NCBI RefSeq assembly: GCF_014075995.1 | Contig: NZ_CP055153.1 | Coordinates: forward strand, 4,836,001-4,900,000 | Length of the DNA stretch: 64,000 nucleotides | DNA from: Adhaeribacter radiodurans | GTDB taxonomy: Bacteria > Bacteroidota > Bacteroidia > Cytophagales > Hymenobacteraceae | Direction of reading: 5' to 3' | Shown here: positions 5,524 to 57,650 of the stretch, piece by piece | Position numbering within the stretch: position 1 is the first letter of the stretch | How the letters are laid out: each line of letters opens with the position of its first letter | Made by a program: the position numbers and the translations under genes | Notes under the pieces: generated by a model | What the model saw: only the letters and a program-made list of their open reading frames with translations | Database searches by the model: none | What the model was told of the DNA's origin: nothing

Positions 5524-8500
5524 TTAATTAACTATTAATTTAATAGCAGATTTACTATTTTCATTGATCACATAATACAAACCACGTGGTAACTTAGTAA
5601 TACTAATTGCCTCTCCTTTTTTGTAGTTACCTCTATGCAGGATATTACCATTAGCCGATTGGATACGAATAACAGCATCCGAATCTAAATAGAAATAATC
5701 TTTGGCCGGATTAGGATAAAGTTTAAATGGCCGAAATTTTTCATTTAAAACTAGTAAAGTAGCAGAAGGTGGATTGGTATAACTTGTTTCATCTGCGCCA
5801 ACGTCTATGCGGCTACTTTGCAGCCTTAATTCTCCATCAATATCTCTTTCTCTAATGACCGGTATGTAATTAGGATCACCTGAATTAATAGCCAGAGAGT
5901 TAGAAGATAAATGTAAATTGGGATTTGGTAAGGTGGTAGTAACAAAAATGGGGTTTGCATAATGTCCATTAGCTTCCAGGCCGGTGCCTGTTTTGAAGGA
6001 AGCTAAACTATTATAGTCTTTGCCATTACTATCAATAGTATGCCAGTCAAAAATAATTTGATCGTTATTGCCTGTGGCAGCACTATAATAATGATTATAA
6101 TTCATAGCAAGTTCGGTTGAAATATAACCTGCTCGTGCAATAACTACTACATTGCTAAGGGCATATATAATATTATTCTTTATAGTAATTCCATAAGTAT
6201 TCTGCAGGTATATCTCGCCCCCATAATCTCCACGCGAATTGTTCTTGAAAAAAGTATTATTGTTGATTTTGGAGGATTCTACTCTGCTGCCAGAAGCATT
6301 AGCTCCCACGATAATGCCGCCTTCTATATTATTATATATAAAATTACTCCGAACACTTATTTCTGTAGCTGTACGGTTAGGATTCTCACAGCCCAGAGAA
6401 ATGCCCACACCATTTTCAAAAGACTTATTGCCTTCAACAATAATCATCTTGCCTCCATCTACATAAATACCAGCCGAAGTAGCCACTTGCGATACGCAAC
6501 GGTAAGCGGTATTGCCCAATACTTTTCCATTGCGAGCCTGATTTAGATTTTCGGCACCTTCTGCCACTGTCCAGGAATAATGTCCGGCAATAACTATCCC
6601 GATATTGGTATTATCATGAACCGTATTTTTTTCGACCACGAAATTTTCTACGTTACCCGTAATTGTTAGGCTTTCGCTATAACCAGTAATGTTATTATAT
6701 ATTTCGTTGGAACCAATGTACAGGTTATTGTAAGAGGCAGAACTATTACCGACAATAACGAACGGATTAGCATTATTACCCGAACCAGGCTTGGTGCTGG
6801 CGTTTGAAGTCCAGCCAATATTATATACTTTACAATTAGTTACCTGAACGTTGGTACCTGCACCGTGTATAAAAATACCTTTAGCATAGTCGCGGTAATA
6901 ATTGTGAATTTGCAAACCGTTGATGCGGACATAGCTTTTACTAGCGATCTCAAATAAGGCAATATCCGCTTTATCGTTAAAATTACTTCCATCTAATTCA
7001 GCAGATTCAGCTTTGTAATTGGTTAATTTAATGGGAGCCGTGACTGTGCCGGAATTCTTCCAAACCAACCTCTCCTGGTAAACGCCTTTTCTAACATAAA
7101 TAGTAGCGCCGGGGATAGCCAAATCTAAGGCATGTTGAATGGTGCGCAGAGGTTTAGTAATGGTACCTGGATTACTATCGCTGCCGGAAGTACTAACATA
7201 GTAATCCACTTCAAAACCTATTGTTAGAATCCAATAATCTCTTCTGCTCCGCAAAGCTTGTGTTTTATCACCGCTTTTAGGTGATTCGGAGCTGCCTGCT
7301 AGCAGATAAGTGCCATTAAAGTTGTTTACTACAGTGGCCAGTTCATCATTGCCAGTGCCACCATAACGCTTATCTCCAAACTTAATACCCGTGTTGCCTA
7401 TTTTCACAACCCAGTAATCATATCTACCTTTGCCTAAAACAAAAACCGAATTGGCTTTCCCTCCTAATAAGTAACCGCCATCTGCAGTACTTATAACGGA
7501 AGTAAGTTCATCATCCGTTATTATATTGCCATACGTTTTATCCCATTGTTTATCGCCAACTTCATTGACCTTTAAAACCCAATAGTCTCTGGTAAAACTA
7601 TCTTGCGATTTATCATTGTTGATAAGAGAATTGGAAGTTCCAGCCAATAGGTAACCGCCATCAGAAGTGCTTACTACCGAAGCCAAGGCATCATTACGCG
7701 TTCCGCCATACCTTTTATCCCATTGCTTATTACCATTATTATCTGTTTTAACTACCCAATAATCATTGCCACCTTTGCCTACTCCTTTTATTGTACTACC
7801 TGTACCCGTAACCAAGTAGCCGCCATCGGATGTACTTATTACTTCCGCCAATACATCATCACTAAAGCTGCTGTAAGTTTTATCCCATTGTCTGGCACCT
7901 TGGCTGTTAACCTTCACAACCCAATAATCTCTCGAAAAACTGGACTGTGACTTGTCGCCGCTGGCTTTTGAATTGGAAGTTCCTGCTAAAAGGTAACCGC
8001 CATCAGCGGTGCTTATCAACGAACTTAACTCATCTTTGCCATTACCACCGTATTTTTTTTCCCATTGCTTCGTACCAGTGCTGCTGATTTTAACAAGCCA
8101 ATAATCACTTTTTTCCTCGCTATCATATGAAGTACCTGCCAACAAATACCCCCCATCGGAAGTTTGAATAATCGAAGCCAGTTCATCCGACCAATTATCA
8201 CCAAAAGTTTTATCCCATAGCCTATTACCACGGCCATCTGTTTTTACAATCCAGTAAATACTCTTGGTATAGTCTGGCCAATAATTTGTCGCCGAAGAAG
8301 TTATTCCTAAAATAAAATTTAGATAATTGCCAGCGAGTATATAGCCTCCATCAGCAGTTGGAAGAGTTGCTTTTAAGTTATGCCAGCTAAAATTACCTGT
8401 ATTCTTTGCATAGGATCTGTCCCAGGAAACAGGTTCGTTAAATTCATAAGAATAAGAAACAATAACGCCCTTTTCACCAAACCCAGCAATGTCCGCCCGG

Positions 8501-9654
8501 TTGTCGCCATTAATATCCGCCAGAATCCGGGGATGACTTTCCACTCGCCACCCATTATTATAACCATACTCCTCTACTCCTAGTTTAGGCGTCGTAAAGC
8601 CCTCTCCTGTGGAATAGGAAACATAAACGCCATCCTCCGTAATCCCCACAATATCTGCCATATTATTACCATCGATATCTGCCAAATACCGCGGATGTTG
8701 CTCCACCCGCCATCCTCGGTTATAACTAAAGTTTTGTAATACCCGAATCGGGTCGGTAAAGTCAGTACCAGTAGAAAAAGACACGTATACGCCCCTGTTA
8801 CCAAACGCCACAATGTCGGACCGCTTGTCGCCGTTAACATCCGCCAAAAAACGAGGATTTCGATCTACACGGTATCCCTCACTTTCATAACCATAGTTGC
8901 TCAATAATCGCGCTGGTGCCGTAAAATTCTTACCCGTAGAAAAAGAAACATCAACCCCATAGCTGGAGAATCCGACAATATCTGTTTGGTTATCGCCATT
9001 TACATCAGCCAGAAACCGGGGATGCCGATCTACTCGCCACCCGCCAGCCAACCTACCAAACTCCTCTACTTCTAACTCAGGAATTGTAAAACCAGTACCT
9101 GTTGAATAAGATACATACACGCCACTGCTTGCAAACCCAACTATATCCGCCCGATTATCGCCGTTAACATCAGCCATCATCCGGGGATGATTCTCTACCT
9201 GCCACCCCTTATCCGTACCAAAATCTTCTACTTCTAATTGAGGGCTTGTAAAACCGGTACCAGTTGAATAGGATACATGCACTCCATTATCGTAAAAGCC
9301 AATAATATCAGCCTGGTTATCCCCATTCACATCGGCCAGAAACCGGGGATGTTGCTCTACCCGCCACCCGCGGTTGTAACTAAAGTTTTGTAATACCCGA
9401 ACAGGAGCTTCAAAACTAGTTCCTTTGGAGTAGGATACATAAACACCCTTATTACCAAAAGCTACCACATCGGCTTGTTTGTCGCCATTCACATCTGCTA
9501 AGAATCGCGGATGTTGATCTATCCGGTATCCTTGCCTAACACTAAAGTTATTTATTTGTCTTTCAGGAGGCGTAAAACTTCCTTGGCCGTAAACAGACGT
9601 TAGAGAGAAAGCAAGGGCAGGTACTAACAATAAAAAAAATGCAGATTTTTTCAT
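5524..9654 (-). CDS. giant secreted protein: two seven-repeat propellers, parallel beta-helix, T9SS sorting domain
   Basis: About 1376 residues from the ATG at 9654 (a TTG two codons upstream is unlikely). The signal peptide is MKKSAFFLLLVPALAFSL and so on. Region 1 (about 27-400) has seven repeats of about 55 residues built on HPRFLADVNGDNQADIVGF, an FG-GAP/VCBS-like pattern with DVNGD calcium-type loops. Region 2 (about 410-815) has seven repeats with TSDGGYLLAGT and DYWVVK, a second propeller type. Region 3 (about 820-1290) opens with YYVSTSGSDSNPG and runs as a right-handed parallel beta-helix of the DUF1565/pectate-lyase-like kind, rich in N and I turns (NNTFFKNNS). The last 70 residues carry KLYPNPAKDYF and GLYYV, the type A T9SS C-terminal domain. 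Expected at the cell surface or released. The substrate is unknown; carbohydrate binding or cleavage is inference. Confidence 0.88.
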   Translation of the reverse strand: MKKSAFFLLLVPALAFSLTSVYGQGSFTPPERQINNFSVRQGYRIDQHPRFLADVNGDKQADVVAFGNKGVYVSYSKGTSFEAPVRVLQNFSYNRGWRVEQHPRFLADVNGDNQADIIGFYDNGVHVSYSTGTGFTSPQLEVEDFGTDKGWQVENHPRMMADVNGDNRADIVGFASSGVYVSYSTGTGFTIPELEVEEFGRLAGGWRVDRHPRFLADVNGDNQTDIVGFSSYGVDVSFSTGKNFTAPARLLSNYGYESEGYRVDRNPRFLADVNGDKRSDIVAFGNRGVYVSFSTGTDFTDPIRVLQNFSYNRGWRVEQHPRYLADIDGNNMADIVGITEDGVYVSYSTGEGFTTPKLGVEEYGYNNGWRVESHPRILADINGDNRADIAGFGEKGVIVSYSYEFNEPVSWDRSYAKNTGNFSWHNLKATLPTADGGYILAGNYLNFILGITSSATNYWPDYTKSIYWIVKTDGRGNRLWDKTFGDNWSDELASIIQTSDGGYLLAGTSYDSEEKSDYWLVKISSTGTKQWEKKYGGNGKDELSSLISTADGGYLLAGTSNSKASGDKSQSSFSRDYWVVKVNSQGARQWDKTYSSFSDDVLAEVISTSDGGYLVTGTGSTIKGVGKGGNDYWVVKTDNNGNKQWDKRYGGTRNDALASVVSTSDGGYLLAGTSNSLINNDKSQDSFTRDYWVLKVNEVGDKQWDKTYGNIITDDELTSVISTADGGYLLGGKANSVFVLGKGRYDYWVVKIGNTGIKFGDKRYGGTGNDELATVVNNFNGTYLLAGSSESPKSGDKTQALRSRRDYWILTIGFEVDYYVSTSGSDSNPGTITKPLRTIQHALDLAIPGATIYVRKGVYQERLVWKNSGTVTAPIKLTNYKAESAELDGSNFNDKADIALFEIASKSYVRINGLQIHNYYRDYAKGIFIHGAGTNVQVTNCKVYNIGWTSNASTKPGSGNNANPFVIVGNSSASYNNLYIGSNEIYNNITGYSESLTITGNVENFVVEKNTVHDNTNIGIVIAGHYSWTVAEGAENLNQARNGKVLGNTAYRCVSQVATSAGIYVDGGKMIIVEGNKSFENGVGISLGCENPNRTATEISVRSNFIYNNIEGGIIVGANASGSRVESSKINNNTFFKNNSRGDYGGEIYLQNTYGITIKNNIIYALSNVVVIARAGYISTELAMNYNHYYSAATGNNDQIIFDWHTIDSNGKDYNSLASFKTGTGLEANGHYANPIFVTTTLPNPNLHLSSNSLAINSGDPNYIPVIRERDIDGELRLQSSRIDVGADETSYTNPPSATLLVLNEKFRPFKLYPNPAKDYFYLDSDAVIRIQSANGNILHRGNYKKGEAISITKLPRGLYYVINENSKSAIKLIVN

Positions 9655-15528: not shown

Positions 15529-15890
15529 TACCTTCCAGAAAACTAGCGTAAGTGTTAAGCGTATCGTCACTTGAGTTTACGAACAAAGGTCAGTTTCCTG
15601 ACTAACGTTTTCAAACTATACCGCACACTAGCAAGTATTTAGTAATTCTATTCCGCCAGTCGGGAGACCAATGTCATTAAGTTAAGGATTTTCGCACGAA
15701 TCTACTTTTAATTTATAGGCAATTAATCTCTAAAAAAGAGAGGCACGGAAGTAACTTCCGCGCCATAGATGCCATAGATTGGCTTTGTCAATAAGTCACA
15801 AGTTCCACTCCGCTAAGACTTGCGCCAGAATAGAAACAGAAAAGAGTACCTATAACTTTAAATTATTTTAAATTTTACTGCATCATAAAA
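15529..15890. other. intergenic region with small palindromes, upstream of repeat copy 1
   Basis: No ORF of note. A near-palindrome GCACGGAAGT/ACTTCCGCGC lies at about 15743-15763, followed by a short direct echo (GCCATAGAT twice, near 15762 and 15771). These look like decayed intergenic repeats rather than a gene. Confidence 0.4.
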
Positions 15891-16110
15891 CAGTAGCTAA
15901 GCGCCAAGATACCAGTTTGACTATTGAGGGTCTTCTGGATTCTGCGAATCTTTGGTTCTGATTTTGCGCAGCAAAATTCCGCAGACGCAGTCGAGGAAAG
16001 GAAGCTTAGACCGCCCGCCGAAACAGCCAAATGAGGTCCGCCGGCCATGAGGCAAACTCAGCCATATCAAATACGATAGCACCGCCATCTGAATACTTGA
16101 AAAGGCTCCA
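15891..16110 (+). repeat. dispersed structured intergenic repeat, copy 1
   Basis: About 220 bp sharing ordered blocks with three other places in the window (22957-23165, 40904-41111, and 44980-45175 inverted): GTAGCTAAG, ACCAGTTTG, the shared GTCGAGGAAAGGAAGCTTAG block, the core CCGCCGGCCATGAGGCAAAC, and the end TTGAAAAGGCTCCA. It has an inner hairpin ATTTTGC-GCA-GCAAAAT (15961-15977). The outer stem is weaker here than in copy 2, suggesting decay. Open frames through it (for example minus 15921-16121) are chance. No transposase or flanking duplication was seen. Confidence 0.8.
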
Positions 16111-16165
16111 CAGAAAAGCATTCACCTTACCAGTTCATTTCGAAAATTACAACTTATCCATTCCC

Positions 16166-22800: not shown

Positions 22801-22895
22801 TTTTAGTTGTTCGTTGCTGGTTGATAGTTGTTAGACCATAGACCATAGTCGAGAGTTTGGGTAAATCGTTTGCCTTATTCGTTTACCACCCCCAG

Positions 22896-22916
22896 CCCCT
22901 CCTAAAACAGGAGGGG
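22896..22916. repeat. C-rich hairpin repeat downstream of the efflux permeases
   Basis: CCCCTCCT (22896-22903) and AGGAGGGG (22909-22916) form a perfect 8-bp stem with loop AAAAC. A C-rich lead (ACCACCCCCAG) precedes it. It may end the efflux transcript, though only three T follow on the plus strand. A degenerate relative (CCCCCTTCAAAGAGGG) occurs near 23220, so it may be an interspersed repeat instead. Confidence 0.5.
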
Positions 22917-22956
22917 AGCTTTGCAGACTATAACAATTCGGGAGAATGAAAAAGAT

Positions 22957-23165
22957 CAGTAGCTAAGAATAAATGACACCAGTTTAGCTAGTGAGGACCT
23001 TTTAAGGTTCCGGTTCTGCGCAGCAGAATTTCGCAGGCGGAGTCGAGGAAAGGAAGCTTAGACCGTCCTCACTAGCTAAACGAGGCCCGCCGGCCACGAG
23101 GCAAAACTTAGCCGTGTCAAATAAGATGGAACCTGAGCATGGAGGCTGGAACAGGCTCCAAGTAG
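22957..23165 (+). repeat. dispersed structured intergenic repeat, copy 2 (best-preserved stem)
   Basis: Same family as copies at 15891, 40904 and 44980. A perfect 17-bp inverted repeat (GTTTAGCTAGTGAGGAC at 22982-22998, complement at 23065-23081) encloses 66 nt. Inside is the hairpin TTCTGC-GCA-GCAGAA (23014-23028); copy 1 has ATTTTGC-GCA-GCAAAAT at the same place, a paired base change that keeps the stem. After the stem come the GC-rich core (from about 23081) and the end block with GGCTCCAAGTAG. It sits between the efflux permeases and the response-regulator gene. Confidence 0.85.
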
Positions 23166-32808: not shown

Positions 32809-35800
32809 TTATTCTTGCTTTGCATTCGCAACTGGGTTACTACGCACGTATTCTGAGGGAGTTTGTCCGTATAATTCTTTAAAGCATTTCGTAAAATAAT
32901 TAAGGCTGCTAAATCCCACCTGGTAAGCAATCTCACTGGCATTTCCGTGATGTTGTCTTAACAAACTGGCCGCTCTTTTTAAGCGCATATTTTTAATCAA
33001 TTCATTGGCTGATTGATTCGTAAGAGCAGTAAGTTTCCGGTGCAGTTGGGCCCGGCTCATGCCTATTTCTTTACTGAACATGGTTATATCGAATTCTGAA
33101 TTCGCCATGTTGGTCTCGATAATGGATAAAGCCCCCTGCAGGAATTTTTCGTCTACGGAGTTAACCGTGATTTCCTTTGGATCTACCGAAATATGTTTAC
33201 CGAAACGCTCCCTAAGTTTTTTGCGTCCTTCAATTAAATTTCTTACCCGTATTTTTAATTCATCTATTTTAAAAGGCTTTGCTAAATAATCATCGGCCCC
33301 GCTTTCTAAACCTTTTAACTTAGATTCAATATCTGCTTTTGCCGTAAGTAAAATAACGGGAATATGAGAGGTTCGCTCATCTGTTTTAAGCTTTTCACAT
33401 AAAGTTACCCCATCCATTTTCGGCATCATCACATCCGATATAATCAAATCGGGTATTATTTCCAGAGCTTCCGCCCATCCTTTCAGCCCATCTTCTGCTT
33501 CCAGAATTTGATAGTCTTTCAGGAAATGGTTTTTAATAAAGGTGCGTAAATCCTTATTATCCTCTATTACAAGAAGTTTTATATAGGAGTTTGAAAACTT
33601 TGAAGAGGAATGCGGTAATGCAGTTGACTCCTCCTGGAATTCAGGCAGAGGATTAGTAGGTAATAGCTTTTCTTCCAATTTTTGAGCTTCATCGGGCGAA
33701 CAAACTTGTAAAGGAAGATGAACAGTAAATAGAGTACCTTTACCCGGAGTACTGGCAACCGTAATTTTTCCGCCGTGCAATTCCAGTAATTCTTTGGCCA
33801 AGGCCAAACCAATACCGGTTCCTTCGTAGGCTTTGGTAGCCGAGGAATCTGCCTGATGGAAGCGTTCGAAAATTTGGTTTAATTCTTCCGGGGAAATACC
33901 AATGCCATTATCTTCTAATACCAACTTTACCTGCACAGAAGTAAAAGTTTGCTGCTCCACATCTACTCTAAAATTCACTATTCCCTGGGGTAGAGTAAAT
34001 TTAAAAGCATTGGAAAGCAGGTTAGTGATAATCTTTTCTAATTTATCGGCATCATAGCTGGCATAGAGTAGCCTATCCGGCAAATAAAAAGAGTAAGTTA
34101 TCTGCTTACTTTCAAATAAAGAAACGAAGGAACTGGCTAATACCTTTAAAAAGCCAATTATCTCTCCTGGCTGCGGATTTAACTCCAATTTTCCGGCTTC
34201 TAATTTAGAAAGGTCTAGTAACTGATTGATAAGCTGGAGAAGTCTATCGAGATTTCGGTTAATCAACCTATAATCTTCTTTACTATTTGTTAATGAATTA
34301 CCATTACGCCATAACTTTTCTAAAACTCCTCCAATAAGGGTAAGGGGAGTACGGAATTCATGCGAAATATTCGCGAAAAAGTTAGATTTCAAACTATCTA
34401 TTTCACGTAGTTTCTCTGATTCAATTTGTTTGATTGTTAAATCGGCTTTTAACCTTTCCCGGTTTATAATTACCCGGCGAGCTACAAGAAGGCTAGCTAT
34501 TACAAAAAAGGTATATATAGAATATGCCCACCAGGTCTTCCAGGGAGGAGGATGTATGATAATTTTCAGGCTAGCGCCTTTCTCATTCCATACTTTGCCA
34601 TCGCTGGTGGCTTTTACCCGAAATACGTAAGTTCCGGGGTCCAAATCGGTATAACTGGCTTGTTTTATATTACTACTAAACACCCATTTGTTTTCTAACC
34701 CTACCAACTGGTAAGCATATCGATTCTTCTCGGGTGCATCATAGTTAATGGCCGCAAATTCAAACGAAAGAAAGTTTTTATCATAGGGAAGCTTTATACT
34801 ACCAGCAGGTACCGGTTGGCTCTTTTCTAATACTTTGAAGTTTGTTATATAAACAGGCGGAGGAAGCATTTGCTCCTGGATACTGTCGGGATAGAAAACA
34901 ATTAGGCCATCCTTGTTGCCGAAAAACAGTTTACCATTTCGGCTAAACACACTTCCTCTTTCCAAAAACTCATTTCCAGGCAGGCCGTCACTTACATTAA
35001 AGTTGCGAAATGTATTAGTTTTGGGATTAAAGCGACTCAAGCCGTTCCCCGTGCCAATCCAGATATTTCCCTTTTCATCCCCAATTAGATTCATTATCCG
35101 GTTGCTGGGCAAACCCTGCTGGGTAGTATAGTAAGTGAAAGTATTTGTTTTAGGATCTAAACGGTTTAAACCTCCTCCGTGCGTACCTATCCAGATAATG
35201 CCTGCCTGGTCTTCGTAAAGTGCCATGGCAATGGCGTCATTGATGCTGCCGGAGGGAGAACGGTAATTGGGTTGGTAACGAGTAGAATATCCGGTGACAG
35301 GGTTCATTCGGCCCACCCCTGTGGTAGTAGCCATCCATACCTCTCCAGTCCGGCTAACCATCAGGTCATCAATAAAACCCGAAATTAAACTGGTAGAGTC
35401 CTTTTCGTTTGCTTGGTAATAAGTAAACTTTTTGGTAATAGGATCAAATGAGGCCATCTCGCCAGCAACACCCCCTATCCAGAGCTTTCCGGAAGCATCC
35501 TTATCCAGCATACGAACCGAGAACTTGCAAGGATACTGAATAAATTTGCCGGTTGCTAAGTCATGTTGGTACAGGCTATTTTGCGTGCCCACCCAAAACC
35601 GACCTTTTTGATCTTCCAGGAGGGGCCACCCTTGAGAACGCACCTTAGATATTTGTTGATCGAGCGGATTTACCACAACTTTGGAAAAGCCATAGGATTT
35701 ATTATTCATCCGGTAAAGGCCATGACCTGCACTGCTTACCCAAACAGTACCGTCCTGGTCTTCCACTATAGAAAATATTTCGTTTTCTAGCTGGTGGAAA

Positions 35801-40832: not shown

Positions 40833-40903
40833 AGTAGTTGTTAGTTGTTAGTTGCTAGACTGATGATTCATTCAAGTATTTAGTTTTCAATTTGTTAGAA
40901 CTA

Positions 40904-41111
40904 GGTAGCCAAGAAAAACTGACACCAGTTTGGCAATTGAGCGCCTTGTAGACTTCCGGTGCCGAGGAACGAGGCATTCCGCAGCAGAGCGAGAAAAGGA
41001 GGGATACACCGCGCGAAAGAGCCAAATGAGGCCCGCCGGCCACGAGGCAAAACTTGAAGCTAAAAAGTTAGATAGCACCACAGCCTGGAGGCTTGAAAAG
41101 GCTCCAAGTAG
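40904..41111 (+). repeat. dispersed structured intergenic repeat, copy 3
   Basis: About 208 bp of the same family: GTAGCCAAGAA, GACACCAGTTTGGC, an internal variable GC-rich part, AGAGCCAAATGAGG, the core GCCCGCCGGCCACGAGGCAA and the end TTGAAAAGGCTCCAAGTAG. The stem base is TTTGGC (about 40929) pairing with GCCAAA (about 41021), plus GCGC with GCGC. The inner loop sequence differs strongly from copies 1 and 2, while the ends and core are kept. An 80-codon frame at 40930-41172 crosses it and is considered chance. Confidence 0.85.
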
Positions 41112-44898: not shown

Positions 44899-44979
44899 GA
44901 CAGGGAAAGTTTAGGTTAATTGTAATACGAAATTAAATTTGTTTAGTCGTATACGAAAAGAGTAATAATTGTTTGCTGG

Positions 44980-45175
44980 TGGAGCTTTTCAAGTCTCCAG
45001 GGCTCGGTGCTATCTAGCTTGAGATTTCAAGTTTTGCCTCGTGGCCGGCGGGCCTCGTTTGGCTCTTTTGGGCGATTTAGCGAACCCACTCCGTTGCGCC
45101 GCCATGCTGCTGCGCCCCACCGGAACGCTAAAAGGCCATCCATAGCCAAACTGGAAATTATTGCTAATGGCTACC
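44980..45175 (-). repeat. dispersed structured intergenic repeat, copy 4 (inverted)
   Basis: Read on the minus strand it has the same block order: GTAGCC, CCAGTTTGGCTATGGATGGCC, a GC-rich variable part, AGAGCCAAACGAGGCCCGCC, CGGCCACGAGGCAAAACTTG, and the end CTTGAAAAGCTCCA. The stem base GTTTGGCT pairs with AGCCAAAC. The CGAGGCCCGCCGGCCACGAG core and AGATAGCACC are shared with copy 3. A 64-codon plus-strand frame (45007-45201) crosses it and is judged chance. Confidence 0.85.
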
Positions 45176-45271
45176 TTGCTCCAGGTAGTAGGGATAATTG
45201 AATTAGTAAATACGTCTTCTAAATTACAATTTCTAGTAAAATAAAAAATAGGTGGGAAGAAAGATGGGGGT

Positions 45272-57077: not shown

Positions 57078-57297
57078 ATTTAATTTAAGCCTGCTATTAT
57101 AGTCTTTGTCCAATAAATTCAATGCGGTATTATCCGTTTTAATCCTTCCAACTTCAACCATCCTATTTATACCAGGTAGTATTTACAAATTACCATAAGA
57201 GAATATTAGAAAGAAGTCAATCCGGTAGGTATTGAAAACAGGAATATTGAAAACTTGCCTGAACAATAGATTGATAGTAGCTACTTCTTTCACTTTA

Positions 57298-57427
57298 GTC
57301 ATCCTGAAAGGAACTAACCGGCAGAAAAGAAGAACGGATGGTTGGAAGTAAAGGGAATTACCTACTATAACTTTCCAGACAACCTTGCGGCAGTCACTCT
57401 AAATTGGTTAGATCCTTCCAGGATGAC
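57298..57427. repeat. 130-bp element with 21-bp imperfect inverted ends (MITE-like)
   Basis: The left end GTCATCCTGAAAGGAACTAAC (57298-57318) and the complement of the right end (57407-57427) agree at 19 of 21 positions. The inside has no ORF. No clear target duplication flanks it. A lone similar end occurs near 54552. It could be a miniature mobile element or a long hairpin repeat. The remainder of the 57017-57650 spacer shows no other structure apart from the helicase terminator and the promoter side of the next gene. Confidence 0.65.
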
Positions 57428-57650
57428 GGGAATAAGCAGAAAAAACTGTTTTAAACTTCTATTTCTAACAATCCTGTTGTAAAGACTGTGGGGCTTGAAC
57501 TATCGAAGGTACTTTTTACTATTTGGTATTAGTAGCGGTTAAGGAAAGTATTAATAATTCCCGCTTGCATAAAATAATAGTTAATTCATACAAATTTTTA
57601 GTATCGCTCCCCTATATTTAATGCTTCGTATTTAAAAACAGAAAAGAACT

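Follow-up and report, generated by a model that had tools for sequence, protein, structure and literature searches.

A dispersed, pseudoknotted repeat of the Cytophagales with a plus-strand fold maintained by compensatory change

What kind of unit is a repeat of about 205 nt that lies between genes of Adhaeribacter radiodurans, is built around a long perfect stem and recurs throughout the genome? The window, as we call the whole stretch analysed here (64,000 nt, positions 4836001–4900000 of a 6.94-Mb genome), holds four copies of this element, three on the plus and one on the minus strand (Table 1). All are intergenic, and each is in sense orientation to, and downstream of, the gene on its 5′ side; by eye, the genes beside the four copies are of differing kinds. 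A preliminary description of copy 2, made from the sequence alone, had reported a 17-bp stem with a 66-nt interior; its arms (5′ arm, GTTTAGCTAGTGAGGAC) are indeed exact reverse complements enclosing 66 nt, and a longer but imperfect form of the same inverted repeat was also detected. The nearly invariant segment that the description had placed outside the stem starts at 23081 (CGAGGCCCGCC) and directly adjoins it. Likewise, no ORF of at least 100 aa overlaps any of the window copies, in agreement with the claim that no protein is encoded.

Table 1. Element copies in the window and substructures of copy 2 (gene names by eye).
Feature	Coordinates	Strand	Remarks
Copy 1, single	15890..16114	+	Sense, 3′ of dehydrogenase-E2-like gene
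Copy 2, single	22957..23165	+	ABC-permease-like and response-regulator-like genes either side, both +
Copy 2, 17-bp stem, 5′ arm	22982..22998	+	P1 22982-22989, P2 22995-22998
Copy 2, 17-bp stem, 3′ arm	23065..23081	+	P2 23065-23068, P1 23074-23081
Copy 2, inner multi-stem arm	23001..23062	+	Covarying pairs in A2
Copy 2, P3	23001-23006/23057-23062 and 23008-23011/23052-23055	+	Within inner arm
Copy 2, P4 hairpin	23013-23029	+	Within inner arm
Copy 2, P5	23030-23032/23047-23049	+	Within inner arm
Copy 2, H-type pseudoknot	23084..23102	+	Stem GGCC/GGCC 23084-23087/23092-23095
Copy 2, pseudoknot loop pairing	Loop 23089-23091 with 23100-23102	+	
Copy 2, 3′ terminal hairpin P7	23140..23160	+	Three-base loop; A2 and ortholog alignment
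Copy 3, single	40903..41110	+	Sense, 3′ of SDR-like gene; ferredoxin-like gene convergent
Copy 4, single	44976..45177	-	Minus-strand gene on either side, sense to both

Two further features of the window lie outside the element. A CCCCTCCT...AGGAGGGG palindrome at 22889–22920, upstream of copy 2, is conserved, with slight alterations, throughout the seven genomes that we aligned at the copy-2 site, and a similar sequence occurs within the spacer of one type of paired copies. Periodic repeats at 7283–9565, spaced mostly 153–180 nt apart (families D1–D5), probably code for a repeat protein, although this is a guess.

A plus-strand fold maintained across five families

Copy 2 folds with a z-score of -5.68, a value that none of 200 shuffles equalled; that of the opposite strand is similar (-5.66). 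The element consists of an arm (P1-P2-P3) with variable hairpins at its tip, followed immediately by an H-type pseudoknot. An alignment of 30 sequences (A2; 28 from Adhaeribacter and two from Pontibacter) supports P1 to P5, the GGCC/GGCC stem with its pseudoknot, and the 3′ hairpin, with pairing in 93.6% of the cells and two-sided changes at 26 of the 46 pairs. Cells with double changes amounted to 164, against 44.2 ± 5.5 after shuffling (none of 500 shuffles reached 164), and sliding the structures by 1–3 columns left only 30–51% pairing. Without guidance, the RNAalifold structure of sixty copies from A. radiodurans showed double changes in 13 of 35 pairs. A second alignment (A8), of 37 copies across families, gave 278 double-change cells against 83.5 ± 8.6 in shuffles, and pairing in 93% of the cells against 28–43% for slid structures; A8 was aligned to covariance model R2 (see below), and such fitting favours the modelled structure. 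Relatedness among sequences also inflates covariation tests like these.

The pseudoknot was counted separately, in the 166 distinct copies that represent 205 alignment entries once the 8 outside our regular expression are removed. The second pair can form in 165 of the 166 copies (maximum of 2000 shuffles, 142) and the third in 153 (maximum, 95), while the first hardly varies; thus the loop and its 3′ partner covary. A potential fourth pair, found in 23 of the 166 copies and so under the shuffled mean of 46, was excluded from the pseudoknot. G-U cells exceeded A-C cells both in A8 (51:11) and in A2 after removal of its constant G-U pair (41:10), indicating that the folded strand is the plus strand, either as RNA or as single-stranded DNA. 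Altogether, compensatory changes have maintained the plus-strand fold in five families, as these are grouped in the genome collection used. By eye, nothing but the pseudoknot and its preceding arm is left in distant copies, and the 3′ domain varies from genus to genus; P7 is present in the Adhaeribacter copies and was not found by eye in Pontibacter or in distant ones.

These results refine the preliminary picture of a stem base that other copies keep by different sequence: the base is kept, but the base pairs that differ do so by covariation, and further conserved sub-stems lie inside the stem. The opposition of a conserved core to a variable arm holds only in part: base pairing constrains the arm, and the core, too, is folded, as a pseudoknot. 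A common fold is shared by copies genome-wide and order-wide, and no end of a known insertion sequence was recognised in the loci inspected. The element also matched no known RNA family: Rfam 15 yielded nothing at the gathering score in the window and nothing at E ≤ 1 for copy 2, and among the loci of five relatives we obtained a single chance match, to rli40, away from the element.

With covariance model R1 we found the element in 69 of 200 genomes of Hymenobacteraceae, belonging to four of the six genera sampled (g1, g2, g3, which is Pontibacter, and g6), most of them with at least 12 scored matches; genera g4 and g5 of this sample gave no R1 match. In the order, R1 matched 12 of 291 genomes, including G251 (family f5) and G362 (f11), and model R2 (117 positions), built from six copies of G251, matched 23 of 390 genomes, from families f1, f5, f15 and f19. 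Searching 395 genomes drawn from the phylum, R2 matched only two, both within Cytophagales, and there was no match outside this order. Therefore, beyond its home family the element occurs sporadically in four other families of Cytophagales; stricter filters apply above 40 genomes, so these counts are lower bounds.

Dispersal and the paired form

The core of the element has 165 matches with no more than 3 mismatches in the A. radiodurans genome (84 forward and 81 reverse), and a control with the reversed core pattern gave none. Allowing up to 2 mismatches there were 157, and 1 to 102 per genome in seven congeners, the lowest numbers being those of G007 (1, in a 78% complete genome) and G004 (2). 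The suggestion of a mobile unit in the preliminary description is supported both by this spread, from 1 to 157 core matches within the genus, and by the many copies that lie in inverted pairs bounded by terminal repeats and flanked by 3-bp duplications of the target.

Arrangement was tallied for part of the copies of the genome, from around 100 places among the matches listed, where a profile search produced 160 hits, 138 of them scoring at least 45. By position, these 138 copies make up 42 singles and 48 head-to-head pairs (a minus copy followed by a plus copy, with their 5′ ends towards each other and less than 1.5 kb apart), the latter an upper figure because the pair at 34473/35005 (gap of 329) consists of two unrelated singles and another one (gap of 994) has an intervening gene. 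The gap is of 163–183 nt in 27 of the 48 pairs, and three pairs overlap, as shortened fused palindromes. Other close neighbours were limited to one tail-to-tail case, 1.3 kb apart, and two on the same strand. Among 83 loci of relatives there were 19 head-to-head pairs, in G003, G006 and G001, whereas in 75 other loci (74 from Pontibacter and one from Adhaeribacter aquaticus) no two hits were less than 1.5 kb apart. One head-to-head arrangement was seen in family f15 (genome G308, locus L360; 1501–1615 minus and 1629–1750 plus, with 13 nt between).

The copies appear to be non-coding. ORFs of 107–171 aa lie over or between copies at 8 of 90 sites, their frames being compared by eye, and one of them (171 aa) is a separate gene between two copies; seven units examined for coding potential contained only short ORFs. 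Viral contigs gave two matches, both due to chance. Singles 68615, 1480380 and 4346819 of A. radiodurans have similar flanks, found likewise beside copies in G006 and G003, and this shared flank is probably a paralogous gene. In the Pontibacter loci L224–L303 other repeats surround the element in a longer mosaic, with a GGACAGGT...ACCTGTCC palindrome upstream and ...GAAATGACAAA downstream.

Alignment of eight pair units defined a unit of approximately 690 bp, composed of an outer end, a reversed copy, a spacer, a copy and the other outer end, with terminal inverted repeats of the form TACC...GGTA. Of the 48 pairs, 22 had two recognisable ends and 26 did not. The target triplets on both sides were identical in 11 of these 22 pairs, against a shuffled mean of 5.1 (10 of 5000 shuffles were as high), and 29 of the 44 flanking triplets were TTA or TAA, consistent with a 3-bp TWA target duplication. 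The element is therefore a dispersed, multicopy one whose pairs in Adhaeribacter lie head-to-head inside a miniature inverted-repeat transposable element (MITE), with the terminal inverted repeats and target-site duplications proper of these. By eye, a terminator-like hairpin holds one such unit (pair 20163) in its loop. Conversely, inspection by eye of the 42 singles revealed no target duplication, and MITE-like ends in only one exception (single 5326741).

Five extra loci have a MITE end: L312 is a full pair absent from the core list, L313 and L316 are shortened pairs or remnants, and L314 and L315 have the ends without the element. Ten further loci proved to hold either small elements from a second MITE family whose ends are similar, or single ends, or matches due to chance; no transposase-bearing form with these ends was recognised by eye among the five and ten loci, nor did we find an enzyme mobilising the element. 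The 3-bp target duplication nonetheless points to a DDE-type transposase acting in trans. A second, different MITE-like element of 359 bp, with TACC...GGTA ends and TTA on both sides, occupies 57170–57528 of the window, and small elements with ends of similar type occur at L324, L327, L328, L329 and L330.

Position behind genes and history of the single copies

The copies are intergenic and mostly located behind genes, whose positions we determined by simple ORF calling; orientations are given in the order 5′-side gene, 3′-side gene. The singles of A. radiodurans are ++ in 23 cases, +- in 10, -- in six and -+ in one, with two incomplete. The set from its relatives (69 hits minus 8 of less than 120 nt) includes loci from G003 and G006, picked non-randomly by match strength or place in the list, with 12 ++, 4 +- and 1 -- in G003, and 12 ++, 6 +-, 3 -- and 1 -+ in G006; the other congeners contributed 4 ++, 2 +- and 1 --, and a smaller set from Pontibacter, which leans antisense, 2 ++, 5 --, 5 +-, 2 -+ and one incomplete. 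At tandem sites, the ratio of ++ to -- is then 23:6 in A. radiodurans, 12:1 in G003 and 12:3 in G006, or 47:10 when pooled (p = 7.5e-7, among sites of which some are orthologous and hence non-independent). A larger Pontibacter set, with 6 short hits dropped and no duplicates, comprised 29 +-, 18 ++, 12 --, 4 -+ and 16 incomplete sites (17 when the Adhaeribacter locus is counted), and its bias (18:12) was not significant. Six of the seven copies in G251 and G362 are sense to the upstream gene, 23–70 nt past its end, and among 16 distant loci, two of them common to that set, the copy is sense in 11 of the 15 with a 5′-side gene. The pairs of A. radiodurans lie between convergent (22), tandem (23) or divergent (2) genes, with one incomplete.

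Six congeners (G001, G002, G003, G005, G006 and G007) also carry a copy at the copy-2 site, and G004 gave no match there. Of 65 sites in G006 (45) and G003 (20), 18 correspond to a site in A. radiodurans by orthology of both flanks, and 13 of these 18 to a single in this strain. Nineteen comparisons of orthologous copies, including six for the copy-2 site, revealed 189 pairs that form in the A. radiodurans copy and differ in the ortholog: 105 double and 47 single changes keep the pairing, and 27 single and 10 double changes break it. However, orthologs were no closer to each other than to copies from other sites, ranking 2–81 of 123 in 13 comparisons, so the compensatory changes, although they look like selection acting on individual sites, fall short of proving it, and the case for it is weakened. 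The orthologous copies from Adhaeribacter (L073–L079, L143–L193) thus keep their site between species with a sequence no closer than elsewhere, a pattern suggestive of ectopic conversion, in which other copies overwrite the resident one.

Explanations, resemblances and implications

With moderate confidence, we interpret the element as a mobile repeat of Cytophagales that is old, non-autonomous and apparently non-coding, and in which the folded plus strand is selected, probably as RNA. Selection would act on this strand in the 3′ region or an intercistronic part of mRNAs, a location suggested by the copies of Adhaeribacter and most of the distant ones examined, which lie behind genes in sense orientation; we infer such an action as the best supported by the sequences, rather than as a demonstrated fact. 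A factor supplied in trans probably recognises the fold, allowing the element to spread and be kept. Singles would be older copies, overwritten via sequence exchange with other copies, and pairs would reflect a more recent route of amplification by the putative transposase.

The same sense orientation and 3′ position would be expected of a cis element useful to the host, whose fold in 3′-UTRs or intergenic regions protects, processes or terminates mRNAs and whose mobility is incidental. The four window copies, all sense and downstream of their 5′ neighbour, agree with this role, as does the occupation of the copy-2 site in six congeners. We nevertheless deem it unlikely, if worth serious consideration, because core matches range from 1 to 157 within a genus, R1 gave no match in g4 or g5 among the family genomes sampled, the genes around the window copies differ in kind, the orientation bias is not significant in Pontibacter, and the terminal hairpin of copy 2 is not followed by a T-run. 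Somewhat more doubtful to us is that the element could be a SINE-like RNA parasite, whose gene-less pseudoknotted transcripts would copy themselves in sense behind genes across the order by means of a trans-supplied factor able to read the RNA fold, and would only recently have been packaged as head-to-head pairs in a DNA transposon.

In another reading, a Y1 (RAYT) transposase would read the fold as single-stranded DNA, with the head-to-head pairs as a REPIN-like replicating form. The coexistence of inverted pairs with older singles parallels that of REPINs and REPs, four Y1 matches exist in the A. radiodurans genome and, by eye, many Adhaeribacter copies start with GTAG. We hold this to be quite improbable, since the core (up to 4 mismatches) is absent from the 1.5-kb flanks of those four matches, G008 and G021 have at least 12 scored copies each and no Y1 match at E ≤ 0.001, Y1 genes occur also in genera free of the element, the pairs carry terminal repeats with 3-bp duplications, and GTAG is not general among distant copies (by eye). 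A guide RNA (omega-RNA), or the relic of a ribozyme or intron of a known class, diverged past recognition, would share with the element its mobility, its arm and pseudoknot and a size of about 115–205 nt, similar in those classes. The lack of any Rfam match at the element, at the thresholds given above, speaks against it, and we hold it to be very improbable. Finally, although the paired copies do form the arms of a real MITE, it is scarcely credible that the structure is only a by-product of the inverted repeats: the covariation in A2 and A8 and the pseudoknot counts concern a fold inside each copy, not between the two, and already contradict it, and, moreover, MITE ends are absent by eye from nearly all singles and end-only MITEs exist without the element.

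In its manner of working, the element is best likened, by analogy, to known small mobile repeats such as YPAL, REP and MITE sequences. As described in PMC2229807, the YPAL/RU-2 repeats of Yersinia and relatives are mobile, of around 168 bp, with internal inverted repeats and without TA termini, and they target sites spanning or adjoining dyad symmetry, recalling the Adhaeribacter pair inside a terminator-like hairpin. Compared by description, the element of Cytophagales differs in host group, in its multi-stem arm and pseudoknot with order-wide covariation, and in having a paired MITE form. According to the same source (PMC2229807), bacterial MITEs such as RUP, Correia/NEMIS and ERIC have inverted repeats at their termini and duplicate a short target, as the paired form does, whereas the element is also widespread without MITE ends. 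REPs, according to PMC3733652, are palindromes of 20–40 bp often near RAYT genes. The element is likewise extragenic, folding and of high copy number, with single and inverted-pair forms and GTAG at many 5′ ends in Adhaeribacter, but, at about 205 nt, branched, pseudoknotted and away from Y1 genes here, it does not match their short GTAG palindrome and we rejected its membership in REP/RAYT systems. We found no published account of this repeat in the open-licence PMC literature, and the family is apparently absent from Rfam 15 and undescribed in the literature searched. The BOX elements of Streptococcus pneumoniae are likewise modular, structured, intergenic and multicopy, a likeness that is one of general description.

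The dispersed bacterial repeats compared here are short palindromes or simple stem-loops, unlike the pseudoknotted element of Cytophagales. An elaborate fold in five families, together with 165 core matches in one genome, makes the element a strong candidate for a new class of structured RNA, and the two covariance models, R1 and R2, could be used to annotate the genomes of Cytophagales. If the element is transcribed, dozens of mRNAs in each genome would carry 3′ regions shaped by it, and the spread of bacterial repeats without genes would become a testable question.
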